Part shown: piece by piece, positions 21,950-25,706 of the stretch
Numbering within the stretch: position 1 is the stretch's first letter
How the letters are laid out: every line of letters starts with the position of its first letter
Assembly (NCBI RefSeq): GCF_000149955.1
Contig: NC_030989.1
Location: 327,079 to 391,078 of the forward strand
From: Fusarium oxysporum f. sp. lycopersici 4287
Lineage: Eukaryota > Ascomycota > Sordariomycetes > Hypocreales > Nectriaceae
Direction: 5' to 3'
DNA: 64,000 nt
Notes under the pieces: model-generated
What the model was told of the DNA's origin: nothing
What the model saw: the letters and a program-made list of their open reading frames with translations, nothing else
Databases searched by the model: none
Position numbers and translations under genes: made by a program

Positions 21950-24753
21950 ATGAACACGCTACATCCAAGCAGATTAGAGAATGAAGATGCGAGGAAAGTC
22001 TTCGATGAACTGGAGAAGGAAATTCTTAATTTCTCGGACCGGATTTTCCAATCCAAGCCACCCGCCGATAGCTCACAGGCAACCTTCACACTCAGTGAGA
22101 GGGTTGTAGCGAGCAAAGCCGGGTCTGGTTCATTTCCTGAGGAAGTAGTTGTCTGCCCGAAAGCTCGTCTCCGTGAATCTACGGTAAAGAAGAAGACAAA
22201 AGTCTTTAAGTGTCGGTGCTGCTGTGTAGATGAACCGCATTCAGACGGCTTGACCTACAAGCGTAAGTAACCTAAACAAAAACGTTCCTGAGGATAAGAG
22301 CTGATTTAGAACTAGTCATAAAAGGGAAGAGCTTCCTCAGAGAGGAACTACATCCTAGTGGGCTGCGCAAGTGGTTTATCATGACACTGAAGCCAGAAAC
22401 GCTACAACTTGTCATTGTGAGACTATCAGAAGTATCGCCGATATGTACAACACCGCTCCTTGATAGGTGTCAGCTCTTCAGCTAATTTTGCTTAGATTCT
22501 AGAGAGGTTGAAACCTTGTCGAAGACCATCGCTTCGCAGGGAATATCTTCTGAGCGTGGCATTGGCACGACAGTTAGGCCCAGAACGATGGAGATGATAC
22601 AGAAGTAAGTCTCTGCCAGATTTTGCTCGAGAACACTCGGATTGTACTTGGAAACTGATCTTTAGAAGCGATTGGGTGTTCCCGTCTACCAAAATAATGA
22701 AAGTTATTCTCCACTCGTTCAACACCACAACATTACTTCCAAAGCCGTCAAGTGTCGAGCTAAAACACTTTGGCGTATTGCAATCGCCCCATACGGAGAA
22801 GGGTGTAGGTCAACAGGCTCTCACAAACCTACTGCCTCAGTCCTACTTCTGCATCCTCTCCAGAGAATCTCATTCGGGCGAAGAAGACTGGGAAGTACGA
22901 GGTCAGTCTGACTGCTATAAGCAGAGTAGTGTTTTGGTGCTGCTACTAACAAATCATACTGCAGTTAACTCATATACACGGATATGTCACGAAACCAACC
23001 CTCTCGGTAGGCTTGTTGTTACTCTTCAGAATACGACGGTACCTCAAGCCATGACTCAAGGGCAGCAGGGACCTGAGGGCGATGTTCACTTTTACTTCGA
23101 TCTACGTGAAGGTCAGCCATCCAAACAATGTCACGCATCTTCTGAGAACTGATTGTCGCATTGATGATAGATGCACAGCTATTCGCTGCGTATTTGAAAG
23201 CTGCTCAGGACAGACTGCGGGAAATGTTCGTCCGTGGCCCTATGGAGAACGAGAAAATCGTGGATTCTCGGCTGTTTGATGCTGATTACAGTCTACGTAC
23301 CCAGGCTAACGGTTGGAGGGAGTTTCCAATACCCGCCGAAGATGACACACAAGCAAGAATCAGATTTATGTTGGTAGCATTACAGGAAGATGGAGAGCAG
23401 AGGTACAAGGCAATTATGTCACGAGAGGGATACGCTGATGCTGTTTGTATCGACTGTAGGGAGTTTTCTATCATATTTTATATGTGCCTCGAGACTGACA
23501 GCGTGACAGTCAAGGACAAGACGCCACAAATATCTCAAAGAGGCCTCTTGAAGTCTCTGGAAGACATCGAAGTATGGATAAGTGATTACGATGCTAATGT
23601 GAAGTCTGTTGTCTCCCAGATGAGCTGGGGGGACCTCACTCGACGAGGGACCAAGCCACGAAGTCTCAGAGCCACATTCATCAAGAGGTAACTATTCCCC
23701 AGAAAACCTCGACAAATGGCTTACAGTTTTGGAAGCGAAAACGAGCGTACGGCTGGCGATTGGCTTGATGAGGTAGATGACCTGATCAGAGCTATGCGAG
23801 GAGACAGAAAAGATCCCTACGGACGGGTCAAGATTGCCATCATCGACTCTGGTTTGCATGATAAGGAGAGAGACCGTTACCAAACTGAGTATAAGGACTT
23901 TACTGGTGTTCCTGCGAATGACTCGTGGCACGGTACTTGCTGTGCTGGGATAATTCAGGGAATGTATGAGGAGGCTAGGCTATACATCGCAAGGGTCTTT
24001 GAACGGGACCATGCTGATGAGATTGAAGGGCCTCTTCGGATGGCGAGAGTCTGTTTCCGATACCTGTGACGCCGCATTTTATACTGACTGTTCAATCAGG
24101 CTATCCACTGGGCCATCGAACCACCTCGCTCCGTCGACATCATCAGCATTTCAGCTGGTTTCCGCAACTACTCCAAAGAACTCGATGACGCCGTCACGAG
24201 AGCCAAAGCCGCTGGTGTTCTCGTGATAGCCGCAGCGTCGAATTGGCAGAACACAAACACTGTCGCATTCCCAGCTCGCCATAATCTCAGTACGATGTGC
24301 ATTTACTCTACCAATACTGGAAATCAGAGCTCAAGCTTTAATCCGGAACCTCGTGCTGATACGCAGAACTTTGCTATTCTAGGCGAGGGGTTTCAACATC
24401 CAGATCAGAGGAGGAATGAGCGCATGAGCGGAACGTCAAGTAAGAACCGTGGATCTTGAGGAGAATGTACCTGCTGATTGTGAACAGTGGCAACGGCTGT
24501 AGCGGCGGGACTTGCGGCTAGGATTGTCGACTTTTCACGACAGAATGATAACAAAGCATCGATCTTTAGAGCACAAGACGTAGGCAAATTGCCTGGTATG
24601 CTGGCAATCTTCAGTGCTATGTCAAAGCCAGCAGGTAATCTAAGATACATATCACCACTGGAGTTATTACCTTTGAGGCACGGAGTCAGTCGAGAAGCAG
24701 ATAGACAGCGTGTGAGGGAGGTTCTGTCACAAGCTATGGAGAGGGCAAACTAG
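21950..24753 (+). CDS. Subtilisin-like (S8) serine protease, HET-Q2-like, with N-terminal helical domain
   Basis: My model is 21950-22262, 22310-22416, 22496-22604, 22666-22901, 22965-23111, 23147-23687, 23727-24048, 24100-24439 and 24488-24753, about 793 residues. The peptidase domain is complete. Aspartate is in KIAIIDSGL, histidine in DSWHGTCCAGII, the oxyanion asparagine in VIAAASNW, and serine in SGTSMATAVAAG, which is formed only after the last splice (24440-24487). The N-terminal half resembles helical regions found on fungal NLR-type S8 proteases. Two problems exist: exon 3 seems to need one extra base near 22590 to join RREYLLSVALARQLGPERW to KSDWVFPS, and a TAA at 23688 is removed only by a 39-nt intron. 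No signal peptide, so it acts inside the cell. It lies tail-to-tail, 48 bases from a gasdermin-like gene, its likely substrate. Confidence 0.75.
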
Positions 24754-24801
24754 AGGAGCGTTCGCGTTAAATAACAGGAGAAATTCACATCAACAATCAG
24801 C

Positions 24802-25706
24802 CTAGTTTTCCGGGCCTTCATCTAAGATCACAACTTCGTCAAGCTTATCATCCTCGACAATCGTGAAGCCCCCCAAGCCTTCGTCCCGCAATACGCTCTC
24901 AACATTTAGCTCACTATCATCACCACCTGCGAACGTAGCTCTCTTGGTGTACGGATCCACTGACCAGTCCTTCATCAGCAAGCCTTTGTGGATCTTGGCA
25001 AGGCGGATAGCCCAGATGAAGTCTCCGGGGTGCTCCCCAGAAACTCGCTGGGAGGCGATGCGCTTGTTGGTGGCTGTAGCCCGCATTGTAGCAACCAACG
25101 GAAGATCACTGTAAATTATCAATATTAGCTGATATTTATAATGAGAAGCGAGGCTCACAGTTCTGGACCAATGTCAGCTGCCACGTTGGTCTCTTCCTGC
25201 GCTTCTCGCTTCCCCGCACGGGCGACTTTGATACCGGTGATCATAAACATGGACCACGAAACTTTCCCCTTCACGTAGGCATTTAACTGATCTTGTTCCA
25301 GACAATCCTCGATATACCCCTTCGTAGGCTGCACTATATAGGTGTCCAATCGATCATACGCCTCATGGCTCTCTACAGTCTTCATAAACGCAAACTGTAA
25401 ACTAGCCTTGGCTGTGACGCCGGTAGCTGCGAGTATCGGCGCGCCAGCTGCGAGATTCGTGCCCGGAGACCTTAATCTGGTGTCATCCCATGTGAAGTTG
25501 AGAGTAGTGTTGCAAAAGACGCGCATGCGTGGGGGAAAGGGGAGGATTGAACCATGGTTGAGAGGGAAGCCGAGGGTTTTGAGATTAGAGATGAAGTGGC
25601 CAAGGCAGAGAGGTGCAGTGGAATCATCGCCGTCGCCGTGGAGGATGGCATCCTCTGGGGGAGGGGGATAATCGGCTTGGCGGAGCTTGAACCAGACTTT
25701 TTCCAT
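24802..25706 (-). CDS. Putative fungal gasdermin (HET-Q1/RCD-1-like), partner of the adjacent protease
   Basis: Two exons, 25159-25706 and 24802-25108, encode 284 residues; the 50-nt intron keeps phase. No signal peptide or membrane helix is present. The N-terminal 225 residues are beta-rich and show the rhythm of a gasdermin pore domain. Strand YIVQPTKGYIEDC is followed by WSMFMITGIKVARAG (151-165), a polar hinge, then LPLVATMRA and GDFIWAIRLAKI (211-222). This parallels the animal pattern of a 'vvtevl' strand ending in 'lafrvaqlvi'. A 60-residue acidic tail follows (residues 226-284), as expected for the inhibitory piece removed by the protease. Length, tail and convergent placement beside an S8 protease match het-Q1/het-Q2. 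The family call is from pattern and context, without a profile search; an unrelated cytosolic protein remains possible. Confidence 0.62.

Follow-up and report, generated by a model that had tools for sequence, protein, structure and literature searches.

About 1,900 gasdermins have been reported from 400 fungal genomes (PMC10197012). Approximately 80 % of them are reported to cluster with protease genes, and the share is about 60-63 % when S8 (subtilisin-like) protease genes are considered alone (PMC10197012; PMC10989679), and the gasdermin-clustered proteases have been named Q2L (PMC10197012). In Podospora anserina, the S8 protease HET-Q2 is reported to cut the gasdermin HET-Q1 after F238, which removes 40 residues or about 5 kDa (PMC10989679; PMC12881547). 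RCD-1 of Neurospora crassa is reported as not controlled by cleavage (PMC12881547). Here, a 64,000-nucleotide window of the genome of Fusarium oxysporum f. sp. lycopersici 4287 (contig NC_030989.1, positions 327,079 to 391,078) was analyzed, in which an S8 protease gene and a gasdermin gene converge at window positions 21950 to 25706. This pair very probably constitutes a fungal cell-death module of the two-gene type, in which a Q2L protease gates a fungal gasdermin (fGSDM). It is a further Q2L/gasdermin cluster of the published arrangement and not a new system, although the initial annotation of this region had considered it a probably undescribed pair.

The gasdermin gene (24802..25706, minus strand) has two exons (25706-25159 and 25108-24802) with a single intron at 25158-25109 and encodes an intact fGSDM of 284 amino acids, which is 99 % identical to P0001 from F. 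oxysporum f. sp. matthiolae. A sequence search related it to RCD-1-1 with an E-value of 1.5e-36 and weakly to HET-Q1 with 0.0021. With a gasdermin profile, the corresponding values were 1.3e-59 and 4.7e-5, where the PDB chain of HET-Q1 aligns to the profile only as far as residue 218. Since scans of the protein with Pfam and NCBIfam matched no model, the gene would have been missed by family models alone. A structure comparison of the AlphaFold model, which is moderately confident with a mean predicted local distance difference test (pLDDT) score of 63.4 and tail blocks of 36-53, found the gasdermin N-domain fold in the predicted structure and a resemblance to RCD-1 as well as to animal and bacterial gasdermins. 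The HET-Q1 structure 9uv9 was absent among the 50 matches listed. The initial annotation had suggested the family from two motifs, both of which are present in the protein, and had proposed a profile search and an AlphaFold model as checks; its family assignment is borne out by both.

The similarity to RCD-1-1 ends at residue 239-244, and the gasdermin body extends to about residue 242, close to the end of RCD-1. It is followed by an acidic C-terminal tail of 42 residues (243-284; 24805..24930, minus strand) with 4.5 kDa and a net charge of -12, which is absent from the RCD-1 chains and presumed to be inhibitory. A body of 225 residues with a tail of 60, as previously delimited, has to be corrected to these boundaries. 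At the boundary lies Phe242 (codon 24931..24933, minus strand), a candidate P1 cleavage residue by its conservation and by comparison with F238 of HET-Q1. Homology searches recovered 92 gasdermin and 77 protease homologs. In a chosen set of 39 of these gasdermins, position 242 is occupied by F in 35 sequences, W in two, and M and C in one each. All 39 share a strongly conserved block ending at this position, a variable linker and a tail of 38-59 residues with a net charge between -7 and -18. A similar anatomy is described for HET-Q1, which has 278 amino acids, a Phe at the boundary between body and tail, a tail of about 40 residues and an S8 partner (PMC10989679). The proposed equivalence of Phe242 and F238 is based on position. 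From this anatomy and the precedent of HET-Q1, the tail would act as an inhibitor that is removed by the partner protease.

The protease gene (21950..24753, plus strand) encodes 770 amino acids in ten exons, namely 21950-22262, 22316-22444, 22496-22604, 22669-22901, 22965-23111, 23171-23455, 23510-23687, 23736-24048, 24100-24439 and 24488-24753. All nine introns are of the GT-AG type and 48-64 bases long. The position of intron 2 (22445-22495) was set by comparison with relatives, and exon 8 may begin at either of two acceptors 9 bases apart, both of which are used in annotated relatives. A broken reading frame was rejected because the donor of intron 2 corrected from relatives removes the apparent stops. 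The frame is open throughout, so the gene is intact and the repaired protease that had been envisaged earlier is not needed. The protein aligns without gaps and with 96 % identity to the annotated F. oxysporum protein P0094. Pfam PF00082 matches residues 496-697 with an E-value of 1.4e-22, and the complete catalytic site recognized in the initial annotation is confirmed in the spliced model. It comprises Asp502 (23845..23847), His530 (23929..23931), the oxyanion Asn617 (24241..24243) and Ser682 (24436..24438), all on the plus strand. In an alignment of 33 proteases, His530 is nearly invariant and the other three residues are invariant. An S8 domain that has all four of these residues and adjoins a gasdermin is what is found in Q2L-fGSDM two-gene clusters, and the stop codons of the two convergent genes are separated by 48 bases (24754..24801), as noted before, which is well within the 10 kb that define such clusters.

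The N-terminal region of about 470 residues (exons within 21950..23751, plus strand) is the presumed sensor of the protease. Pfam found no family in residues 1-470 of the window protein. Among 33 of the 77 protease homologs, S8 was the only family found, in 32 of the 33, and none was detected in the N-terminal region. Most annotated Q2L proteases are reported to bear ANK, TPR or WD40 repeats (PMC10197012), whereas this N-terminus carries no annotated domain. In precomputed Pfam annotations, distant S8 homologs bear DUF7580, ankyrin or TPR domains alongside S8. For all ten relatives compared, identity is lower over the N-terminal part than over the catalytic part, for example 82.6 % versus 94.7 % for P0095 (F. 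oxysporum) and 66.2 % versus 94.0 % for P0096 (F. mangiferae). A variable N-terminus joined to a conserved catalytic part fits a sensor attached to an executor, but is not proof of it.

This variability bears on whether the locus could be a true allorecognition (het) locus, at which the pair or the protease sensor would be polymorphic among strains and kill fused cells. Even among F. oxysporum proteins, the presumed sensor region is more variable than the catalytic domain, as the values for P0095 show, the pair has a HET-domain gene at a distance of 7.5 kb, and gasdermins are described as components of known het systems (PMC12881547, PMC10989679, PMC10197012). However, a variable sensor is also compatible with pathogen sensing, and HET genes are frequent in this genome, with at least 150 matches. 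Furthermore, het-Q1 and het-Q2 are described as idiomorphs, that is, alternative genes at one locus (PMC12881547), whereas both genes stand intact side by side in one genome here, so that the locus does not qualify as a het-Q locus in the narrow sense. HET-Q2 also differs in its length of 388 amino acids from the protease of 770, and HET-Q1 in its weak sequence match. An allorecognition function is regarded as rather unlikely. Of the het-Q-type module that had been suggested earlier, the pairing of protease and gasdermin holds and the assignment to the het-Q locus proper does not; in outline, this earlier interpretation is supported.

RCD-1 is the nearest relative of the window gasdermin in solved structure and in sequence over residues 1-244, and differs from it in being tail-less. 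Bacterial gasdermin-protease systems are more remote, with 8-12 % identity over aligned residues. The long branch of the HET-Q1 fragment made a tree that included it unusable. In the midpoint-rooted tree without this fragment, RCD-1 falls on the side of the window clade, split with a support of 100/99 from two further gasdermins of the same genome (C9 and C10), which are long branches. RCD-1 could nest inside the window clade or beside it, with a support of only 34/68 for the branching order. If the midpoint is the root, the protease-paired form could be older than the RCD-1 state, a hypothesis drawn from this tree. A tailed, protease-paired gasdermin near RCD-1 makes it testable whether RCD-1 arose by loss of the tail and the protease. 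This proximity also raises an RCD-1-like mode of action, in which death would follow the meeting of two divergent gasdermin variants and the neighboring protease would not be the activator. Divergent gasdermins, either alleles or separate loci, do exist in F. oxysporum (P0021 with 69 %, P0026 with 60 % and P0058 with 46 % identity). Nevertheless, RCD-1 lacks the acidic tail, the S8 partner is intact here, and several genera have linked homologs of the pair, which makes such an action very unlikely.

The recurrence of the pairing was assessed in the same genome (61.2 Mb, 71 contigs). At least three gasdermin loci were found, namely the window, C9 and C10, the latter two being identified by comparison with RCD-1, the HET-Q1 chain or the A1 profile, and merging of 46 matches resulted in at least 37 S8 loci; both counts are lower bounds. 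An S8 match lies at distances of 274, 409 and 1192 bases from the three gasdermins. All three are thus within 1.2 kb of an S8 match, compared to a probability of about 0.0033 for each to lie within 2 kb by chance under the assumption of uniform gene placement. Among the open frames of the regions L013, L014 and L025-L027 and of the remaining window, the window protease was matched at an E-value of 0.01 or less by the S8 frames of C9 and C10 only. Elsewhere, 20 apparently linked pairs of gasdermin and protease were picked by hand from the printed names of the homologs. Gene numbers one or two apart link 17 of them, including a Trichoderma atroviride pair whose numbers are not necessarily positional, and three are linked by an equal-sized contig only. 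These pairs occur in Fusarium, Talaromyces, Trichoderma, Hirsutella and Conoideocrella. Two divergent pairs, P0021/P0122 and P0026/P0126, are carried on small contigs by the strain F. oxysporum f. sp. pisi HDV247. Although S8 genes are not rare in this genome, the adjacency at all three loci and the recurrence in five genera make it extremely improbable that an unrelated S8 protease ends beside the gasdermin as a chance neighbor, and the gasdermin/S8 pairing is not due to chance.

The two other gasdermin loci differ in their arrangement. The second gasdermin (L013, C9:2760500-2768500) is tail-to-tail with an S8 protease, whose upstream frame matches DUF7580 (PF24476, 6.9e-26). The third (L014, C10:77000-85000) is divergent from its S8 gene and has a long acidic C-terminal extension. 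In the same genome, S8 matches with identical scores were observed at C3:2445746, C3:3701657, C6:2015053 and C70:143169, each beside a DUF7580 match that likewise has identical scores. This suggests that a DUF7580-S8 gene, or an entire segment of the assembly, was recently duplicated.

For the protease-gated gasdermin module, the following mechanism is proposed. The protease would perceive a trigger, which may be a non-self fusion, a mycovirus or another attack, via its N-terminal region, which is less conserved. The activated protease would cleave the neighboring gasdermin at the boundary between body and tail, most likely after Phe242. The removal of the acidic tail would then release the body 1-242, which could oligomerize in the plasma membrane, form pores and kill the hyphal compartment.

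The intact genes, the homology and fold of the gasdermin, the anatomy of its tail, the catalytic residues and the recurrent pairing are read directly from the present data. We infer the cleavage and its site, the inhibition by the tail, pore formation, killing, the sensor role and the trigger by analogy with HET-Q1/HET-Q2 and with gasdermins generally. Several points weigh against the mechanism. The gasdermin is nearer in sequence to RCD-1, which is reported to be activated without cleavage. At its level of confidence, the AlphaFold model does not reveal how the tail would inhibit, and the Pfam scan of the window protease found no recognized repeat or NLR domain. From the printed names, a protease could be assigned to just 20 of the 92 gasdermin homologs. 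Gasdermin divergence correlates with the divergence of the partner proteases (r = 0.88, 190 comparisons), which partly reflects shared species history. For Fusarium, the locus provides an intact putative gasdermin death pair with a specific and testable predicted cleavage site.

A second S8 gene of the window is located 15 kb from the gasdermin pair (39296..42731, minus strand). It would combine S8 frames at 39296-40599 with an ankyrin-like frame at 41313-42731 in one gene, of which the ankyrin-like first part is weak. Divergent from it lies a gene of a family termed X (43131..44015, plus strand) encoding 294 amino acids. The predicted fold of X matches small beta pore-formers of the alpha-hemolysin/leukocidin type. 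PF07968 was found in one of 63 X relatives (E = 0.001) and not in the window member, and other families hit more relatives more weakly, such as CEP76-C2 with six of 63 and a best value of 0.016. A PDB sequence search with X gave no match, and a comparison with viral structures gave nothing at an E-value of 0.001 or less. By sequence, X was rejected as a gasdermin, since the profile comparison of both families gave no match (probability 0.4 %). The hydrophobic alternation in X is strongest outside the presumed hairpin and lends no support to membrane insertion.

A total of 109 homologs of X were recovered. The genome contains four X copies, and for three of them an S8 match lies on the other strand at a distance of about 3 kb. 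The fourth copy (L027, C4:4723500-4731500) is interrupted by stops, which may stem from introns or decay, and there is no S8 match within 2.6 Mb of it. The ankyrin-like part of the second S8 gene has a match in L025 (2.2e-16) and none in L026, which counts against a uniform architecture of the X-linked proteases. In the X-linked S8 proteases at 39296-40599, L025 and L026, inspection by eye showed Asp where the oxyanion Asn is normally found (FCAASD, FCAAAD and FCSAPD), and the Asp, His and Ser motifs are retained.

Tentatively, the window may represent a small defense island with two protease-gated pore-forming modules, where the S8/X pair would be undescribed and its ankyrin-like S8 protease would control X as an intracellular effector with an alpha-hemolysin fold. 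If so, fungal S8 sensor proteases would drive more than one class of pore-formers, and the gasdermin with its protease would be an example of a more general plug-in design. If X is a true second pore-former controlled by S8, the neighbors of fungal S8 proteases would yield further self-destruct systems. The S8/X module deserves a separate study.

Further genes of the window include two adjacent ankyrin-rich open frames at 46131-49910, possibly one gene. The best-scoring stretches of the first frame are listed from residue 560, and its long N-terminus may lack a Pfam match. The HET-domain gene mentioned above is an open frame at 13334..14455 on the minus strand (PF06985, E = 2.5e-25). Together with the two S8 modules and the ankyrin proteins, it looks like part of a small defense island.
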